36,768 bases of DNA from Anaerolineales bacterium. Lineage in GTDB: Bacteria > Chloroflexota > Anaerolineae > E26-bin7. The notes under the pieces were generated by a model. It searched no databases. It was not told where the DNA came from and worked only from the letters and a program-made list of their open reading frames with translations. The stretch spans positions 1 to 36,768 of the forward strand of contig SOHZ01000292.1 of the NCBI GenBank assembly GCA_004377365.1, written 5' to 3'. The stretch's first letter is position 1, and the number at the start of each line of letters is the position of its first letter. This document shows, one piece after another, positions 10,521-21,716 of the stretch. The position numbers and the translations under genes were made by a program.

Positions 10521-12404
10521 TCAGCCAGTCAGTTCTTCAGCAGCGTCGTTCAGCCCCAGTTCTTCCAGTTTGGCCCGGGTCGGCAGCCCTGTCTCCACAT
10601 CCCATCCCCGCGCTCGGTAGTACTCGTCCAGCATGGTGTCAAGCTCGACCACCGCTCCAGCCGAAGGGCTGGTCGGCGGACCGAGGGGCTCTTCGAGGAA
10701 GCGACGGGGCAAGGTGTCGTCGGCGCGGGTGATGCCCTCACGAGCGATAAAAGCCCGCTCCAGGTTGACGATGCGCTCGCCGATACGCCGCACATCCTCA
10801 CCGCTCAACTCCCAGCCAGTAGCCGCGTTGAGCAACTCGGCTGTCTCGTCCCAGTTGAGCACTTCCATGTTGTTGTAAGTGTTCTTGCAGACCCCGGCGG
10901 CATCAGAGATGGCGGCCATCTCCTCAAAGTGCTTGACCACCAACCCCTTGCCTTTATATTCCAGGCGGAAGGCTGTCTCTGGGATGCCGTAGCGGCGGAT
11001 GCCTTCCTCAGGGTCTTCGGAGAACTCGAACCACGGCTCCGACCGCAAATGATCCGCTCCACGACTGGCCACGGCGTTACCCAAGGCATAGCCTTTGATG
11101 CTGCGGAGATCGGCCTGGAACACCTCCAGCCCTTTGCCATGCATGGCCAGTTCTTCGGAACCGCGCCCGATACGCTCGGCGGCCTTTTTGACGCCGTCGG
11201 CCAACAAGTCGCCGAAGCCCTGGCGATGGGCGACTTTCTCGATAAGGGCCATGATGGTCTCTCCGTTCCCCCAGGTCAGGTCCAGGCCGTCGGCCTCTTC
11301 ACGAGACAGGATACCCAGTTCATAACATTCCATCGCCCAGGCGATGCACTCGCTTAAAGCGATAGCGTCCAGGCCGTAACGGTTGGCCATATCAATGAAT
11401 TTCAAACCCAAAGCCAGGTCGCCGTTGCCGATGCGGGAGGTGAACCCGGCCAGTGACTCGTACTCGGGACCTTCCAGACGCAGACCAGGAAAACGTGGGT
11501 CTTTCACGACCAGAAAGCGGCTGCAGGGAATGGTGCAGGCGAAGCAGGCCTTGCTCTTGATTTTGTACTGGGCCTCGATGGCCTCGCCGCTGACCTGGTC
11601 GGCGTACTCGAACTGACCAGTCTGGAAGTGGCGGGTAGCTATGCCGCCGATCTTGTTCAGGGCGGTGATCAGCTTGGTAGTGCCCAACCGCACGCGGATG
11701 TCGTACTCGGCGTGATTGTAAATGACCTCGTCCAACTGTTCGATCATCTCGGTGAAACGGGCCATGTCGGCCACCGGTACGAGTTGCGTGCCGCGCACGG
11801 CTACGGCCTTGAGGTTTTTCGAGGCCATAACGGTGCCCATGCCCGTCCGCGCCGCGGCCCGCACCAGGTTGGCGAACACCCCGGCAAAGCGCACTCCATT
11901 TTCTGCCCCCTGGCCGATGGTTGCCACTTGAATATCCCGGTCTCCCAGTTCCTCCAGGATAGCTTCGGTGGTCTCCCAAGTATCCCGGCCCCACAAGTGG
12001 CGGGCGTCGCGCAACTCTACCTCTGCATCTCTGATCCACAAGTAGACGGGGTGCTCCGCTTTACCCTCAATGATGACCTGATCGTAGCCCGCGAACTTTA
12101 GCTCCGGGCCAAAGAAACCACCGGCATTGGAATCGCCCAGGATGCCGGTCTGCGGTGACATGGCCGTCACGTTGAACCGAGCACCCCCTGGGAACAGAGT
12201 CCCCACCAGGGGGCCTACACCAAAGATCAACTTGTTCTCCGGCGAGAGGCCATCGGTGTGGGCGGGCACCTCATCCCAAAGGCGTTTGACATTGAGCCCT
12301 CGTCCTCCCAGGAAGAAGCGGGCCAGGTTTTCCTCGGTGGCCTGACGGTGGATACTGCCGTCGCTGAGATTCACACGCAAAATGGTGCCGCCGTAACCGT
12401 TCAT
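10521..12404 (-). CDS. aor: Aldehyde ferredoxin oxidoreductase, tungsten type
   Basis: The 627-residue protein matches the family length. It has the N-terminal pterin domain (GYGGTILRVNLSDG, FFLGGRGLNVK), the ARTGMGTVMASKNLKA segment at about 185-200, a Cys triad CX2CX3C (C287, C290, C294) and a fourth ligand in AGVCKN (C506) for the [4Fe-4S] cluster. Such enzymes oxidise aldehydes to acids (or reduce acids) with ferredoxin as electron partner in anaerobes. Its ATG overlaps the stop of the upstream ferredoxin gene by ATGA, so the two are translationally coupled and the ferredoxin is the likely electron partner. The true aldehyde substrate cannot be read from sequence. Confidence 0.92.
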   Translation of the reverse strand: MNGYGGTILRVNLSDGSIHRQATEENLARFFLGGRGLNVKRLWDEVPAHTDGLSPENKLIFGVGPLVGTLFPGGARFNVTAMSPQTGILGDSNAGGFFGPELKFAGYDQVIIEGKAEHPVYLWIRDAEVELRDARHLWGRDTWETTEAILEELGDRDIQVATIGQGAENGVRFAGVFANLVRAAARTGMGTVMASKNLKAVAVRGTQLVPVADMARFTEMIEQLDEVIYNHAEYDIRVRLGTTKLITALNKIGGIATRHFQTGQFEYADQVSGEAIEAQYKIKSKACFACTIPCSRFLVVKDPRFPGLRLEGPEYESLAGFTSRIGNGDLALGLKFIDMANRYGLDAIALSECIAWAMECYELGILSREEADGLDLTWGNGETIMALIEKVAHRQGFGDLLADGVKKAAERIGRGSEELAMHGKGLEVFQADLRSIKGYALGNAVASRGADHLRSEPWFEFSEDPEEGIRRYGIPETAFRLEYKGKGLVVKHFEEMAAISDAAGVCKNTYNNMEVLNWDETAELLNAATGWELSGEDVRRIGERIVNLERAFIAREGITRADDTLPRRFLEEPLGPPTSPSAGAVVELDTMLDEYYRARGWDVETGLPTRAKLEELGLNDAAEELTG

Positions 12405-12880
12405 AGTGCGCCCCTCTCATCAAGCGACTGCCCCGCCATAGCTGATTTCTCCCGTTTCTCGCGGGCGATGGTATCGTTATCGGCGTAGATAATAGCCTCG
12501 GTGGCGCATCGCTTCACACAGGCTGGGTCCCCGTCGCACAGATCGCAGATCAGCGGCAGCTCTGTCTCTGGATGCAACACTACCATCCCGAAGGGACACT
12601 CATCCACGCAGGCTGAGCAGCCGATGCAGTCCTCGGCCTTGATCCAGACCACGCCCGTGACCTCGTCTCGGTACAGGGCCTCCGTCGGGCAGGCGGCCAC
12701 GCAAGCCGGTCGCCGACACAGGCGGCAGACGTTGGGAACGTCCAACCCCACCGGTTCGATCTTGGTCACTTTGATGCGGGCCGTGGCCGTACCAAACTGG
12801 CCGTCATGGCGGGCCACGCAAGCCACTTCACAGGCCCGGCAGCCGCTGCACACCTCTCTTCGCGTCAGAAGTCGTTTCAA
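12401..12880 (-). CDS. Four-cluster [4Fe-4S] ferredoxin subunit
   Basis: I chose TTG 12880 (MKRLLTRREVCSGC), with GGAGG exactly 7 nt upstream. The frame is open much further up, but that part is Arg/Ser-rich and unlike the family. The 159-residue protein has 16 Cys in four sets: C11/14/17/21, C52/55/60/64, C85/88/91/95 and C112/115/121/125, as in DmsB/HycB-type electron-transfer subunits. It probably passes electrons between the coupled aldehyde oxidoreductase and a cellular carrier. It is the first gene of the operon. The 278-bp gap upstream shows no clear promoter. Confidence 0.88.
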   Translation of the reverse strand: MKRLLTRREVCSGCRACEVACVARHDGQFGTATARIKVTKIEPVGLDVPNVCRLCRRPACVAACPTEALYRDEVTGVVWIKAEDCIGCSACVDECPFGMVVLHPETELPLICDLCDGDPACVKRCATEAIIYADNDTIAREKREKSAMAGQSLDERGAL

Positions 12881-13158
12881 TGTTTTTCCTCCCTCATCAC
12901 CCCTGAACTCTCGAAGGGCCGACCCAGAGCTCCGCTGCCGACCGGGACACGATGAATTTGCGCGCACGGCTAGGGCGGTCGGCCCTGAGAGCCTGCTACG
13001 TGACCTCCTGGCAGTTACCACGACTGAACTCTCACCGGCTAGCAGACGATGGCTTGCGAGGCACACCAGCGACCTGTTATGCGGCAACGGATATCTGCCA
13101 CTTCCTACAGCACCCCGCTCTTTAGAAACGCAAAGAACGTATCGGATGCAGACGCATG

Positions 13159-15283: not shown

Positions 15284-16021
15284 TCAGGTCCCCAGATAGG
15301 CCTTCTTCATCATCTCGTTTTGCAGCAGGTTCTGAGCCGTGTCGGCCAGGACAATGCGACCGGTCTGGAGCACATAGCCCCGGTCGGCGATGGATAAAGC
15401 CATATTGGCGTTCTGCTCCACCATGAAGATCGAAGTCCCCTGCCGGTTGATCTCCTGAATCAATTCGAAAATACGTTCCACCAGGATAGGAGCCAATCCC
15501 ATCGAGGGTTCGTCCATCAGCAACAACTGGGGGCGAGACATCAACGCCCGGGCGATGGCCAGCATCTGTTGCTCCCCACCCGAAAGGGTGCCGCCCAGTT
15601 GCGAGAGCCGCTCTCTGAGGTGGGGAAAAAGGGCCAGGGCCCGTTCCATGTCCTCTTGGATCCCTTCCTTATCATGGCGGAGATAGGCTCCCATTTCCAG
15701 GTTCTCCAACACCGTCATCTCGGGGAAGATGCGCCGGTTCTCGGGCACGATGGCCAGCCCCCTGGTCACGATGTGCCCGGTGGGCAGCCCGTCAATGCGC
15801 TCTCCCCGGAACTCGATGGTGCCGCGAGCGGGTTTGACCAGCCCCAAGATAGTCTTGAGGGTGGTGGACTTGCCAGAGGCATTGCCGCCCAGCAAGCAGA
15901 CCATTTCCCCTTCGTGGATCTTCACGTTGACGTCCTTGAGGATCTGGATGGGGCCATAGTAGGTGTCAACGTGGCTGAGCTTTAGCAAGGGGCCGGTCGA
16001 GGGGCTGTCATCTGGGCGCAT
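15284..16021 (-). CDS. livF: Amino-acid ABC transporter ATPase LivF
   Basis: I chose ATG 16021 (MRPDDSP), with a GGGGGG site upstream, giving 245 residues and a 14-nt overlap with livG. It carries Walker A GGNASGKST (45-53), signature LSGGEQQ (146-152), Walker B LLLMDE (166-171) and the LivF-typical PSMGLAP and EQNANMAL. It pairs with LivG to power the LivHM permease on the cytoplasmic face. It is the last gene of the livKHMGF order. No clear terminator follows before repeat B. Confidence 0.93.
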   Translation of the reverse strand: MRPDDSPSTGPLLKLSHVDTYYGPIQILKDVNVKIHEGEMVCLLGGNASGKSTTLKTILGLVKPARGTIEFRGERIDGLPTGHIVTRGLAIVPENRRIFPEMTVLENLEMGAYLRHDKEGIQEDMERALALFPHLRERLSQLGGTLSGGEQQMLAIARALMSRPQLLLMDEPSMGLAPILVERIFELIQEINRQGTSIFMVEQNANMALSIADRGYVLQTGRIVLADTAQNLLQNEMMKKAYLGT

Positions 16022-16805
16022 CTTCCCCCCTTTTCGCTTTCCGACCCAGGTAGGCCTCGATGACTCGCTCGTTGTCCGCCACCTCGTCATGCGGTCCTTC
16101 AGCGATTTTTTGGCCATAGTCCAGAGCCACCACCCGGTCGGATATGCCCTGCACTACTTTCATGTCGTGTTCGATGCAGAGGATGGTACAACCGGCCTCA
16201 TCGCGCAGGCGGCCAATCAGCCCGGTCATCTCCTGGGTTTCATGGGGGTTCATCCCGGCCGTCGGCTCATCTAGCAGGAGCAACTTGGGGTCGGTGGCCA
16301 TGGCCCGGGCCACTTCCAGGCGACGCCGGTTGGCGAAGGAAAGGCTGTAGGCCAACTGGTCGAAGCGGTAGCCCACCAGGCGGGTGCCGAAGAAAGAAAG
16401 CCGCTCGATGGCCTTTTGCCGGATCTTTTTCTCCTCACGCCGGAAACCGGGCAGGCGGAAAATTGCCGGCCACATCCCGGCCTTGGTCCGGCAATGCTGG
16501 GCCACCATCACGTTTTCCAGGACGGTCATGTTGGTGAAGATGCGCAAGGTCTGAAAGGTGCGGGCGACGCCCAGGGTTGTAATCTCGTGAGGCTGAAGCC
16601 CCACCAGGTTGCGCCCCTCGAATAGGATGTCCCCCTTGTCAGGCCGGTAAAGGCCGGTGACCAGGTTGAAGACAGTGGTCTTGCCTGCCCCGTTGGGACC
16701 GATGAGGCTGACGATCTCCCCTTCTTCGACCTGCAGGTCCAAATCAAACACAGCCATCAAGCCGCCAAAGTTTTTGGTCAGGCCTCGTGTCTCAAACAGC
16801 GGCAT
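16008..16805 (-). CDS. livG: Amino-acid ABC transporter ATPase LivG
   Basis: ATG 16805 has GGAG 6 nt upstream. The 265-residue protein has Walker A GPNGAGKTT (36-44), the LivG-type signature LSFANRRRLEVARAMA, Walker B LLLLDEPTAGM and the H-loop CIEHDMKV. It contains the LivG-specific insert around residues 95-130 (AQHCRTKAGMWPAIFRLPGFRREEKK). It lies 33 nt after livM in the operon. It forms the second ATPase of the importer. Confidence 0.93.
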   Translation of the reverse strand: MPLFETRGLTKNFGGLMAVFDLDLQVEEGEIVSLIGPNGAGKTTVFNLVTGLYRPDKGDILFEGRNLVGLQPHEITTLGVARTFQTLRIFTNMTVLENVMVAQHCRTKAGMWPAIFRLPGFRREEKKIRQKAIERLSFFGTRLVGYRFDQLAYSLSFANRRRLEVARAMATDPKLLLLDEPTAGMNPHETQEMTGLIGRLRDEAGCTILCIEHDMKVVQGISDRVVALDYGQKIAEGPHDEVADNERVIEAYLGRKAKRGEDAPR

Positions 16806-16838: not shown

Positions 16839-18323
16839 TCATTGCCTCTGTACTATCCTCTGCCCAAACAGGCCCTGAGGACGGTAGTTCATCATCAGCA
16901 CCAGCAGAGCGCCAAAGATCAACATACGGGTGATGCTGGGTTCTTGCACCAGGCGGGTTTCCCAGACAAAGGTCAAGGCATACAGAGCGGGTACCCACAG
17001 AACATATCCGAACCGAGCCTTGAACCGATAGGCCAACAGGAGCAAGCCCATAGCCAGCACAAAAGCTACGCTTCCCACAGCCCGGCTGTTTTGGGGATGG
17101 ACCATCCACCAGTTGAGAGCCTTGATCAGCGGTGCATAGAATGACCGCGCTATGCTGGTTGGGATTTCCGGTTGGGTCAACCATTCGGGCCGCAGCCAGG
17201 TCAGCAGAGTCTTAACTGCCAGCCCCAATAGTATCACCCCGCCCAGCAAAGTCAGGCCGCTCAGTTTCCGCCGTCGAAAGACCAGCAGGAGCCCCAGGCT
17301 CAAGGCCCCGTAGAAAATGAAACGGGCCATCTCGGGGTTGCGCAGCAGTTCCGGCAGGATCGAAAGGATCAGGGCCCCGCTCACAGCTCCCCAGATGGTG
17401 CCCACTCCGCCCAGAACGACCATAGAGTAGAGGATGATGAGAATGGTCACGTCGAAATTGGAGGGAAAGACCGCTCCCTGCCAGGCGGCAAAGATCGCCC
17501 CCGTGGCCCCGGCCACACTGGCTCCCACTGAGAAAGCCAGCAACTTGAGACGCCGGACGTCCACACCCATGGTCTGGGCGGCCAGCTCGTCCTCGCGGAT
17601 GGCTCGCCAGGCCCGCCCGATACGCGAACGATCCAGGTGGTAGATGGCAATAAGGATCAAGGCTGTGAAAACGAGGATCAGATAATAATAGCGGGTGACG
17701 TTGTCAAAGGTATAGCCCAACACTGTGATGTCGTCAATCTTGATGATGCCGTTAGGTCCACCAGTGATGTTCAAAGGCTTGTCCAGATGCAGGAAAGGCA
17801 GGTTGACCCTGTCCAGGTTCAGAAAAAGGATGCCCGCAATCTGGCCAAAGCCCAGGGTGACGATGGCCAGGTAATCTCCCCGCAGGCGCAGCGAAGGGGA
17901 GCCCAACAAAAGCCCAAAGAGAGCGCTGACGAGGGCCACCAGGGGCAGCACCAACCAGAAAGGCCAGTGCTGGTTAAAGTGAGGAGAGGCCAGCAGGGCG
18001 TAGCCGTAGGCTCCGATACCGTAAAAGGCCACGTAGCCCAGGTCGAGCAGGCCGGCAAACCCAGCTACCACATTCAATCCCAGGGACAGGCTGATGAACA
18101 GCCCGGTGATACCCGCTACCCGGAGGTGATAGTTGTTATGCACGACGAGGGGAACCAGAGCAGCCAAGGCCAGCCCGGCCAGCAATCTGAGGCGGGGGTC
18201 TATCCGATCCCAGGCACGCCGTAGGCGGAAGGTCAGGCGACCAGCAGCTTCAGCCTCTCTCTGACGGGCCTCCTCCTGCACCACCCATTCGTCTGTGCCA
18301 AAGTGATTGAAATCTGAGCTCAT
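16839..18323 (-). CDS. livM: Amino-acid ABC permease LivM, C-terminally enlarged
   Basis: This 494-residue membrane protein has the LivM core: [43 protein letters not shown] and the coupling segment [19 protein letters not shown]. After LPELLRN the usual short end is delayed: about 120 extra residues with three or four more hydrophobic segments come before the normal tail [16 protein letters not shown]. The N-terminus also has a charged soluble lead of about 40 residues. It forms the translocation path with LivH. A 286-bp gap with two palindromic repeats separates it from livH. Confidence 0.9.
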   Translation of the reverse strand: [494 protein letters not shown]

Positions 18324-18523: not shown

Positions 18524-18620
18524 TGTCATGCTGAGCCCTTCGACTGCGCTCAGGATAAACTCCGCGAAGCATCCCGTTCTTGGTTTGTGGAACGAGATTC
18601 TTCGCTCGCTCAGAATGACA
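18524..18620. repeat. Palindromic repeat overlapping the livH 3' end
   Basis: The arms TGTCATGCTGAGC (18524-18536) and GCTCAGAATGACA (18608-18620) differ at one position. The interior contains a CCCTTCGACTGCGCTCAGGA motif, a common dispersed type. The right arm reaches into livH. Confidence 0.75.
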
Positions 18621-19584
18621 CACTTGTCGGTTTGAGGCGAAGCTTCGCTGTAAGCTCATACCTTCTGTGGGGCCTTGGCCCCAACAAGCCACGAGGGCGG
18701 AAAACCAAGATCAGGATCAAGAGAGAGAAGGCAATCAGGTCCTTGTAGGTCGGAGAGATGAAACCCCCTCCAATGCTCTCGATGAGGCCCAGCAGCAGTC
18801 CTCCCAGCATGGCTCCGGGGATGTTGCCGATCCCGCCGAACACGGCTGCGGTGAAACCCTTCAGACCGGCAGTGAAACCCATGAAGTGATAGGCCTGGGT
18901 GAACAGCAGGCCGACTAGGACTCCGGCCGCGCCACCCAGGGCAGAACCGATGAAGAAAGTGACCACGATAATCTGGTCCACGTCAATGCCCATCATGGCC
19001 GCCGCCTCACGGTCCTGGGCTGTGGCCCGCATGGCCTTACCCAGCCTGGTTCGCTGCACCAGGTAGTGCAAACCTACCATCAGCAACAAGGCAACGACGA
19101 TGACCAGAACCTTGGTCATAGAGATGGTGGCTCCAAAGGCGGACACCCGCCAGGTACGGGGGATCAGCAGGCCGGTGCGATAGGTCCTGTAGCGGGCACT
19201 CATAGTCAGCAGTACGGCATTCTGGAGAAAAAACGAAACGCCCAGTGCGCTGATCAGGGGCGCGATACGCGGCGCCTCGCGGAGAGGGCGGTAAGCGAAC
19301 CACTCAATGATGATGCCCAGAAAGCCGCAGCTCAGCATGGCCAGGACTAGCATAAGCAGGATGATAACGACGGCGGGGAGGAACAGAGTCTCTTGGGGGA
19401 CCAGCAAGGCGAAGACGCCCCATCCGATAAAGGCTCCGATCATGTACACTTCGCCGTGAGCAAAGTTGAGGAGTTGCAAGATGCCGTAGACCATAGAGTA
19501 GCCCAGGGCGATGAGCGCGTAAACGCTGCCCAGGGTGATGCCATTCACCAATTGTTGGGGCAACTGTTTGAGAATGGCTTCCAT
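18610..19584 (-). CDS. livH: Amino-acid ABC permease LivH
   Basis: ATG 19584 has AGGAG upstream and gives 324 residues. The protein starts MEAILKQLPQQLVNGITLGSVYALIALGYSMVYGILQLLNFAHGEVYMIGAF, the LivH signature. Later it has GKAMRATAQDREAAAMMGID, the coupling loop, and ends with the LVFRPRGLLG tail. It is an inner-membrane permease, partner of LivM. The last two codons and the stop lie inside a palindromic repeat, so the native end may have been replaced. It is the second gene of the operon, after livK. Confidence 0.93.
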   Translation of the reverse strand: MEAILKQLPQQLVNGITLGSVYALIALGYSMVYGILQLLNFAHGEVYMIGAFIGWGVFALLVPQETLFLPAVVIILLMLVLAMLSCGFLGIIIEWFAYRPLREAPRIAPLISALGVSFFLQNAVLLTMSARYRTYRTGLLIPRTWRVSAFGATISMTKVLVIVVALLLMVGLHYLVQRTRLGKAMRATAQDREAAAMMGIDVDQIIVVTFFIGSALGGAAGVLVGLLFTQAYHFMGFTAGLKGFTAAVFGGIGNIPGAMLGGLLLGLIESIGGGFISPTYKDLIAFSLLILILVFRPRGLLGPRPHRRYELTAKLRLKPTSVSF

Positions 19585-19649: not shown

Positions 19650-20909
19650 CTATTCCATCTCCACCTTCTTGACCAGCTCAAAGTGATCACCGACTACCTG
19701 GAAGATGTAGAAGGCGGCTCCTACGGCGTCACCTTTTTCATCAAAGGAGACGTCAAAGCCCAGGATGCCAGGCCGATCCTTGGTGGTCGCTACCTCGCGC
19801 ACTACCCCCTCACGGGTGACCTCGCCATCCTTCTCGTAGGCCCGCTTGATGGCATCCAGCAGGACAGCCATGGACTCGTAAGACGGCGGACCGTAGGCCC
19901 CGAAGGAACCATACTCATCCTCGTAGGCCTTCCAGGCCGACTCGGCCTCAGGAAGGTAGTGCACGTCCGGCGCAAACTGCGAGACGTAGGCTCCCTCGGT
20001 GGCCCCCTCCGCCCCGGCGATGAAATCGTCGGGCGAGAACTGCCCATCGCTGCCCACAATCTTGGCCTCTACCCCCAACTCTTGCATCTGCTTGGCGATC
20101 TGAGCACCTTGAGCCGCCAACTGGATGGGGATAAAGATCACGTCCGGCTCGGCAGCCTTGACCCGCGTCAGCAGGGCCGAAAAGTCGCTGTCATCCTGGG
20201 TAATGGATTCGCGCTCGACCTCCACCACGCCCAACTCTTGCAGCTTCTTCTCGGCCTCGTCGGCGATCCCCACGCTGTAGACCGTCTGGTCGTCAATGAT
20301 GTAGACTGATTTGGCTTCCAGGTCCTTGGCGATAAAGATCGCGTCGGCTGGGGCTTGGACGTCGTCACGAGGCACCACCCGGAAGAAGGTCTTGTAACCC
20401 TGCTCCGAAAGGTCAGGCTTGGTGCAAGAAGGGCTGATGTAAGCCAGACTGTTCTGCTCAAAGATCTCAGCGGTAGCGGCGCAGTTCTGGCTGCTCTCGG
20501 GACCGACCAGGCCGTACACGTCAGTATCGGCGGCCAGTTGCTCTGCCACCAGCACGCTCTTGGCCGGGTCGAACTCGGTGTCTCCCTCGATCATCTCCAC
20601 TTTGACGCCACCTACCCCACCGGCCTCGTTGAACTGATCCATAGCCAACTTGGCCCAGTTGCGCTGCTCCATGCCCACCGAAGCCGCCGGACCGGTCATC
20701 ACCGTCATCATCCCTACTTTGATGACCGCCTCGGCCTTGGGTGCTTCCGTCAGCGTAGGAGCCTCGGTGGGTTTGGGTGCTTCAGTCGGTTTGGGTGTGT
20801 CGGTCGGCTTGGGTGCTTCGGTCGGTGCAGGAGTGGGTCCGCAGGCTCCCAGGACCAAAGACACCAGCACTAGCACTGAAAGCGCAATTCCCAATCTCTT
20901 ATGTGACAT
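19650..20909 (-). CDS. livK: Amino-acid ABC transporter binding lipoprotein
   Basis: I chose ATG 20909 (MSHKRLGIAL), with AGGAGGAG upstream, giving 419 residues. A lipoprotein signal with lipobox LGAC (C23) is followed by a Thr/Pro/Glu/Lys spacer of about 40 residues, then a periplasmic-binding-protein type 1 fold of the LivK/HAAT group (IKVGMMTVMTGPAASVGMEQRNWAKLAMDQFNEAGG, IFIPIQLAAQGAQIAKQMQELG). It is membrane-anchored and delivers the amino acid to LivHM. The T-box upstream reads Trp, so tryptophan or another aromatic amino acid is the predicted ligand rather than Leu/Ile/Val. This follows from regulation only. Confidence 0.92.
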   Translation of the reverse strand: MSHKRLGIALSVLVLVSLVLGACGPTPAPTEAPKPTDTPKPTEAPKPTEAPTLTEAPKAEAVIKVGMMTVMTGPAASVGMEQRNWAKLAMDQFNEAGGVGGVKVEMIEGDTEFDPAKSVLVAEQLAADTDVYGLVGPESSQNCAATAEIFEQNSLAYISPSCTKPDLSEQGYKTFFRVVPRDDVQAPADAIFIAKDLEAKSVYIIDDQTVYSVGIADEAEKKLQELGVVEVERESITQDDSDFSALLTRVKAAEPDVIFIPIQLAAQGAQIAKQMQELGVEAKIVGSDGQFSPDDFIAGAEGATEGAYVSQFAPDVHYLPEAESAWKAYEDEYGSFGAYGPPSYESMAVLLDAIKRAYEKDGEVTREGVVREVATTKDRPGILGFDVSFDEKGDAVGAAFYIFQVVGDHFELVKKVEME

Positions 20910-21041
20910 TTTTCTCCTCCTTGGCAAATCTTCAAGTAACGGATTGGCGGATAAAGTCAGGTTGCTTTCCTTCCTCACCCCCTTTCTATTCCCACAAGCC
21001 TCTAGCGAGCGGACTTGCCGATTCGTGTCCACTAGGTGATC

Positions 21042-21224
21042 TTAAGGTTCTTCAATCTTCGGCAGGGCTTCGACCACGCCTTCGATGTGATGGAGCACAG
21101 CCGCTTCAGCGTCATCCTTCAGGATTGGTGGGAGGTCGGCAGGTCTGGAGATTCGCCGCAAACCTTCTCCCACACCCTTCTGCTGGCGTTGGAGCAGAGC
21201 TCCAGCATTAGCGCCCTCCTTCAC
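21042..21224 (-). CDS. Small ORF between the T-box and livK, uncertain
   Basis: From a GTG at 21224 a 60-codon frame reads to TAA, with a protein-like C-terminal half (PPILKDDAEAAVLHHIEG, VVEALPKIEEP). The best ribosome site in the area (AAGGAGG, 6 nt spacing), however, serves an ATG at 21210 in another frame, which gives only 29 codons (MLELCSNASRRVWEK...). Either a short peptide is made or a former gene has lost its frame. I do not recognise the family; a decayed tryptophan-related gene would fit the T-box but cannot be shown. Confidence 0.35.
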   Translation of the reverse strand: MKEGANAGALLQRQQKGVGEGLRRISRPADLPPILKDDAEAAVLHHIEGVVEALPKIEEP

Positions 21225-21264
21225 GCCCCCCTTTCGGGGGAGGTTTCACTGCATGATAGATAGT

Positions 21265-21681
21265 TATGAAACGAAAAGCCCCCGTCCCGGTAAGGGACGA
21301 GGGCTCCGTAGCCAGGAGCACCCGCGGTGCCACCCTTCTTAGGCCAGCTTCCAGGCTAGACGCGCTCCTCTCCCGCCAGAGATAATGGCCCGACGGGTAG
21401 GCAGATGCAAGAAATCCCTGCCGTGATGGCAGGGAATGCCTGTGAACCAGCCTCACTTGTTGCAGAGACGGGAAACGCGGCAATGCGTTCCGATCCCCTC
21501 AACCCTGATAACGGTGGCGTCTCCGGCGCAGCATATTCGTCGGCTAGCCGACTTTCCGCCTGCAACTCCCAGGTCCATTCAGCCTCCGCGCCGGCGTCGG
21601 GCTCCCACCTACCCCAACTCTCTGGGGCCTCGCTTTAAGGCTTACTAGTCCTGTTCCCAGTCTTTGGCGATGTTTGATTTG
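21265..21681 (-). promoter_or_regulatory. T-box leader, tRNA-Trp specificity predicted
   Basis: On the minus strand the canonical T-box AGGGTGGCACCGCG (21323-21336) precedes a terminator. Upstream lie the Stem I elements CCAGAGAGTTGGGGTAGGTGGGAGC (about 21597-21621, the AGAGAG and GGTGGGAG motifs) and a specifier loop reading GAA-TGG-ACC, with TGG at 21575-21577. By the usual spacing the specifier is UGG, Trp. The bulge UGGC would pair with a GCCA end, and bacterial tRNA-Trp has discriminator G, which agrees. About 240 nt with further hairpins lie between specifier and antiterminator, which is longer than usual. Uncharged tRNA-Trp should allow read-through into livKHMGF. Confidence 0.85.
21271..21305 (-). 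terminator. T-box terminator
   Basis: A 12-bp stem (AGCCCCCGTCCC at 21277-21288, GGGACGAGGGCT at 21294-21305; one wobble) is followed by TTTT on the minus strand. It competes with the antiterminator that contains the T-box motif. Confidence 0.85.
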
Positions 21682-21687
21682 TTATAA

Positions 21688-21716
21688 AGTATACCACACT
21701 AAGATCAAAACGTCAA
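21688..21716 (-). promoter_or_regulatory. Promoter of the T-box leader
   Basis: TTGACG (21711-21716), 17 bp, TATACT (21688-21693) on the minus strand, with the start of the leader expected near 21681. Confidence 0.75.

Follow-up and report, generated by a model that had tools for sequence, protein, structure and literature searches.

A predicted tRNA-Trp T-box in front of a Liv-type ABC importer operon of Chloroflexota

The stretch of Anaerolineales DNA analysed here (36,768 nucleotides, the window) carries a livKHMGF operon that most likely encodes a tryptophan importer. We put at about three in four the probability that the locus is a transcriptional tRNA-Trp T-box which controls a five-gene Liv-type (HAAT) ABC importer, is induced by Trp starvation and serves the uptake of Trp, perhaps with other aromatics. 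The names of Liv-type importers often reflect the family rather than the substrate, and databases would label the window importer a branched-chain amino acid transporter. A tRNA-sensing leader tells independently which shortage calls for the importer, and thereby gives a substrate that can be tested. How would the switch work? When Trp is short, the UGG specifier would pair with the CCA anticodon of uncharged tRNA-Trp, and the UGGC bulge with the GCCA end of this tRNA. In the leader thus bound the antiterminator would form, with predicted read-through into livK and transcription of livKHMGF; with charged tRNA the terminator would form. The importer would supply Trp to a cell that is apparently unable to make it. 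The features of the locus, and those of the other leaders that are discussed, are collected in Table 1.

Table 1. Coordinates of the features discussed (positions in the window, unless a locus is named)
Feature	Position	Strand	Basis
Sigma-70-type promoter, TTGACG-17-TATACT, TG before the -10 box	21688..21716	-	Consensus scan, 10/12 matches
T-box leader: Stem I, Stem II, IIA/B pseudoknot, Stem III, antiterminator	21290..21667	-	RF00230, full length; conserved before orthologous livK in two other genomes
Specifier codon UGG (Trp) in GAA-UGG-ACC	21575..21577	-	Covariance alignment, specifier column; UGG kept in both orthologues and in class trpE/trpB2/trpS leaders
5' part of Stem III: GUGAGGC segment (21456-21450) and inserted terminator-like hairpin UCCCUGCCAUCACGGCAGGGA (21435-21415), U-rich tail	21409..21456	-	Terminator scan, survey, complementarity
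T-box sequence AGGGUGGCACCGCG; UGGC bulge (21332-21329), can pair with tRNA 3' end GCCA	21323..21336	-	Direct reading and covariance alignment
Intrinsic terminator GCCCUCGUCCC...GGGACGGGGGC and UUUUCGUUU, U-run; hairpin 21304-21278	21269..21304	-	Terminator scan and direct reading
60-codon ORF in the terminator-livK gap (probably not a gene)	21042..21224	-	No Pfam match at E 0.1
livK, lipoprotein-type substrate-binding protein, 419 aa	19650..20909	-	Peripla_BP_6, Pfam 3.4e-51
livH, permease	18610..19584	-	BPD_transp_2, 3.6e-48
livM, permease	16839..18323	-	BPD_transp_2, 6.6e-42
livG, ATPase	16008..16805	-	ABC_tran and BCA_ABC_TP_C
livF, ATPase	15284..16117	-	ABC_tran
T-box of an independent liv operon, another class	L247:14204-14486	-	UGG T-box
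tRNA-Ala(GGC) in Leu leader, G000 leuS	L007:1742-1817		
tRNA-Ala(GGC) in Leu leader, G024 leuS	L060:1552-1625		
tRNA-Ala(GGC) in Leu leader, J4, before ilvE-like gene	L064:1695-1769		

The leader lies on the minus strand downstream of an smc gene and runs from its promoter to its terminator. The RF00230 covariance model fits it from first to last position (1-219 of 219) with 78.7 bits and an E-value of 2e-17. As this score is below the curated Rfam gathering cut-off of 93 bits, a default scan is silent on the leader and a permissive search was needed. Three of the seven T-boxes found in the window's genome (G000) reach the cut-off, and clear T-boxes in related genomes likewise miss it. An earlier note, made by reading the letters, had described a promoter, Stem I, a GAA-UGG-ACC specifier loop, a T-box sequence and a terminator, and the model fit together with promoter and terminator scans confirms all of them. 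The fit puts UGG, and no other codon, in the specifier column, flanked as usual by GAA on the 5' side and by RCC (here ACC) on the 3' side. A specifier in the Stem I internal loop, a UGGN bulge and a terminator, the features by which a T-box is recognised, are all present. So is the purine string, which reads CAACAAGUG-Stem III-AAGA before AGGGUGG in the alignment; this 5'-RRRxG-Stem III-AA-3' motif of T-boxes has been described (PMC7583486). The leader folds better than all but one of 100 shuffles (z -2.6), and near-identical terminators occur in the related loci L038 and L069. A simple pattern search for a tRNA-Trp gene, with anticodon CCA and discriminator G (G73), found none.

Is the arrangement conserved? 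Close orthologues of LivK (77-82% identity) were found in two other genomes, the Chloroflexota MAG G024 and Caldilineae bacterium J4, and in both a T-box with GAA-UGG-ACC or GAA-UGG-GCC and a UGGC bulge stands directly before livK. The UGG/UGGC leader is linked to liv in every genome in which such a LivK was found (the window's, G024 and J4), and this linkage is conserved across three families. Upstream of three LivK homologues with 43-51% identity no T-box was found, which confines the linkage to the close orthologues.

Why would these cells import Trp? Gene searches found neither IGPS (trpC) nor TrpA in G000, its congener G001 or G024, whereas J4 has both; G000, G024 and J4 all have chorismate synthase. 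Since trpC and trpA are both missing from the window's genome and from G024 while chorismate synthase is kept, Trp synthesis looks lost, and the two are probable Trp auxotrophs. Part of this absence could be missing sequence, the draft assemblies of G000, G024 and J4 being 88.8%, 79% and 92% complete, with 7.1%, 1% and 6% contamination. The lack of trpC and trpA in two of the three genomes would give a reason for a Trp importer. Among the leaders read in G000 and in G024, no Trp T-box other than that of liv was found. The other T-boxes of G000 precede alaX-like, serS, valS, pheS and leuS genes (a sixth leader, L003, is unread), and the other leaders read in G024, as in G000, belong to aminoacyl-tRNA synthetases and an alaX-like gene. 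J4 has two further UGG T-boxes, on trpE and trpB2. A second match to the UGG pattern in G000 (contig C276) was discarded, there being no T-box there.

What does LivK bind? Among proteins of known structure, its closest relatives go by names that indicate binding of Leu/Ile/Val or other small amino acids, not of Trp, and the identity of LivK to LivJ/LivK and Atu2422 (PDB 1usg, 1z15, 3ip5) is not above about a third. It has the protein family in common with them, together with an alpha-amino-acid signature: in the alignment it keeps Ser140, Thr163, Tyr211 and Asp288, with Tyr339, which we take, by LivJ/LivK and Atu2422, to be the positions holding the alpha-amino and carboxyl groups. Because these residues are kept, the ligand is likely an amino acid. 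The side-chain pocket, in contrast, differs in the alignment from that of Leu/Ile/Val binders at positions 18, 77, 100, 101 and 202. Val78 stands at position 18, the site of the Tyr or Trp that closes over the ligand in LivJ/LivK; Leu264 is at or beside position 202, and Glu138 takes the place of Leu77 of LivJ and Phe77 of Atu2422. By the same alignment, the branched-chain set of Leu77, Tyr/Trp18 and Tyr202 is absent. Glu138 is found in the three T-box-linked orthologues only; the position holds Ala in the three homologues without a T-box, and 28 further Liv-type proteins from related genomes all lack Glu there. An attractive supposition is a widened pocket in which the indole NH donates a hydrogen bond to Glu138, and such a Glu might also suit a basic ligand; either way, it is a pocket residue open to testing. 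The AlphaFold model of LivK is poor (mean pLDDT 62.5, pocket region below 50).

Could this be a broad or branched-chain amino acid transporter that was merely captured by a Trp T-box, as LIVCS carriers were in Bacillus? Wels et al. argued that a transporter under the T-box of a single amino acid may still have a wide substrate range (PMC2494555), and the nearest named family model for LivK is that of a high-affinity branched-chain binding protein, which it matches below the cut-off. We nevertheless consider such a capture unlikely, given a pocket that is unlike those of Leu/Ile/Val binders at five positions and carries Glu138, and a genome that apparently needs to import Trp. The earlier note had predicted an aromatic or Trp importer hidden under a Liv label and had proposed comparing the LivK pocket with aromatic and aliphatic binders. 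The prediction has gained support from the T-box, its conservation and the missing trpC and trpA. By alignment the pocket is not of the branched-chain kind; that the substrate is Trp itself, and not another aromatic or a Trp precursor, is what we infer.

A little less probable than capture is a substrate that is a precursor or derivative of Trp or a Trp-like compound, such as indole, anthranilate or kynurenine. The homologous liv operons without a T-box (L070, L071 and L072, with LivK at 43-51% identity) adjoin a gene for a kynureninase-like class V PLP enzyme, and two of them (L070 and L071) also have genes for an arylformamidase-like cyclase, as well as threonine-synthase-like genes; the kynureninase-like and arylformamidase-like matches are below curated NCBIfam cut-offs. 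The kynureninase-like neighbours lend weak support to a Trp-related substrate in the wider clade, and these neighbourhoods are possibly an uncharacterised catabolic cluster. Against indole and anthranilate stand the alpha-amino-acid binding residues that LivK keeps. Moreover, anthranilate would not help a cell without trpC and trpA, and the use of indole would require TrpB (the searches of G000 covered trpC, trpA and chorismate synthase). Import of Trp itself remains the preferred reading.

The genes behind the leader are livK, livH, livM, livG and livF, as the earlier note had it and as Pfam matches bear out. A Peripla_BP_6 binding protein, two BPD_transp_2 permeases and two ABC ATPases in one operon make this an importer of the Liv/HAAT class. 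The true start of livF is probably near 16000, where homology begins, and distant homologues align from about residue 34-43. Between the terminator and livK lie about 360 bases in the window, with a 60-codon ORF that has no family and for which the J4 orthologue has no room. Is livK expressed from a promoter of its own in this gap, which would make the T-box irrelevant to it? The length of the gap and its ORF would allow this. However, apart from the leader promoter, a consensus scan found no minus-strand promoter match between 20880 and 21760, the gap included; in J4 the start codon of livK follows the terminator within tens of bases, and the linkage is kept in three families. An independent promoter, which the earlier note had named, together with a terminator, as grounds for giving up its reading, is accordingly very improbable. 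Further downstream of livF the window holds genes for an aldehyde:ferredoxin oxidoreductase and an Fe-S partner (10521-13087), and a homologue of the Fe-S partner directly follows livF in J4 (L069:4182-4748). These genes were left out of the importer system, as they are more than 1 kb from livF in the window.

Does GAAUGGRCC stand for Trp in these bacteria? A pattern taken from the liv leaders (GCGCN6YGAATGGRCC), and so biased to leaders resembling them, was searched for in 396 genomes of the class. It yielded 61 further leaders with a T-box motif, one spurious match having been set aside. The downstream gene could be read for 57 leaders and is trpE in 29, a trpB2 gene or operon in 25, trpS in two and an AAA gene in one, which in a relative precedes trpB2. 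As 56 of these 57 leaders precede trpE, trpB2 or trpS, GAAUGGRCC is taken to mean Trp here. No other importer stands behind the 57. In two loci, L081 and L128, the Trp T-box is directly upstream of an AAA-type ATPase gene, followed in L081 by trpB2. UGG leaders in other classes of the phylum precede trpE in five cases and trpB2 in another five. The bulge agrees with the specifier, as had been claimed for the window: UGGC is found in most Trp leaders and in all three liv orthologue leaders, UGGU in Val, Leu and Phe leaders and UGGA in Thr leaders. The stretch GAAUGGACC also holds AUG and GGA in other frames, but the notion that the leader reads one of these, and with it another amino acid, is the least credible of all, given the covariance alignment, the trp genes behind GAAUGGRCC leaders and the correct reading of other specifiers of the same genomes at the same position, such as Leu CUC before leuS.

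A second liv operon behind a UGG T-box was found in another Chloroflexota class (genome G475). Its T-box scores 93.9 bits and precedes a complete operon of livK, livH, a livM-livG fusion and livF. The LivK of G475 is 24% identical to that of the window, is non-orthologous and is without the amino-acid signature. In this second liv case (L202) the bulge is UGGU; among Trp T-boxes such a U is often combined with a G discriminator (46% in TBDB, PMC7778990). Judged from gene content and leaders, recruitment of Liv systems to Trp T-boxes has apparently happened at least twice in Chloroflexota.

Control of a Trp importer by a T-box has precedents, and the differences here are the Liv importer class, the lineage and a hairpin in Stem III. 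The trpXYZ operon of Streptococcus suis, a Trp auxotroph, likewise has a UGG/UGGC Trp T-box before an ABC importer, and its induction by Trp limitation has been shown (PMC9382623). TrpXYZ consists of one binding protein, one permease and one ATPase, whereas the Chloroflexota operon of the window is of the Liv/HAAT kind and encodes two permeases and two ATPases. In the Bacillus cereus group, Trp T-boxes are also found on transporter genes for NSS carriers (Trp, Phe; PMC2494555), which are sodium symporters and not ABC systems. Closest in phylum and amino acid are the Trp T-boxes of the trpE/trpB-like kind in Chloroflexota (Dehalococcoides, PMC2494555), and the surveyed trpE and trpB2 leaders belong to this kind of regulon. 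Unlike those leaders, that of the window controls an importer, and most leaders surveyed in the class have the Stem III hairpin. The literature searched, which took in earlier T-box surveys only in part, yielded no description of a Liv operon under a Trp T-box.

The hairpin itself is terminator-like and occurs in the Stem III region of 49 of the 66 Trp T-boxes of the class, where dinucleotide shuffles give an expectation of about 1.6. It is found in two of 43 other T-boxes of the class, one of these itself a UGG leader, and in none of 11 Trp T-boxes outside the class. UCA occurs in nearly all of the hairpins (47/49), where the loop mostly has it as UCAC or UCAU. At its 5' foot Stem III has a segment, GUGARRC, that is complementary to the loop and 5' arm of the hairpin, usually over 6-7 pairs, and own pairs of GUGARRC and hairpin fit better than swapped ones (p 0.008, kinship uncorrected). 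The purine string, including the GUGARRC segment, reads the tRNA end (PMC7583486), and pausing at Stem III has been reported for glyQS (PMC6197855). Possible roles of the hairpin are those of a programmed pause, a second terminator or a switch working through the purine string. Since the J4 liv leader and several trpB2 leaders lack it, it is not essential. A tentative and rather doubtful extension is that the Trp T-boxes of the class are two-stage switches in which Stem III was rebuilt as a conditional pause or terminator. GUGARRC would then either serve the tRNA-sensing discriminator or break the early hairpin (loop UCAC/UCAU, U-run) by pairing with its 5' arm and loop, and the Liv operon would be one output of a new T-box subtype. 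Whatever its function, the conserved hairpin offers a natural system for the question of the role of Stem III in T-box transcription.

Another class of leader in these genomes has an insertion of its own. Three Leu T-box leaders (specifier CUC) contain a tRNA-Ala(GGC) gene between the Stem I part and the T-box sequence, and two of the three have a tRNA-Ala(CGC) just upstream. Processing of the internal tRNA-Ala would cut the Leu riboswitch in two.
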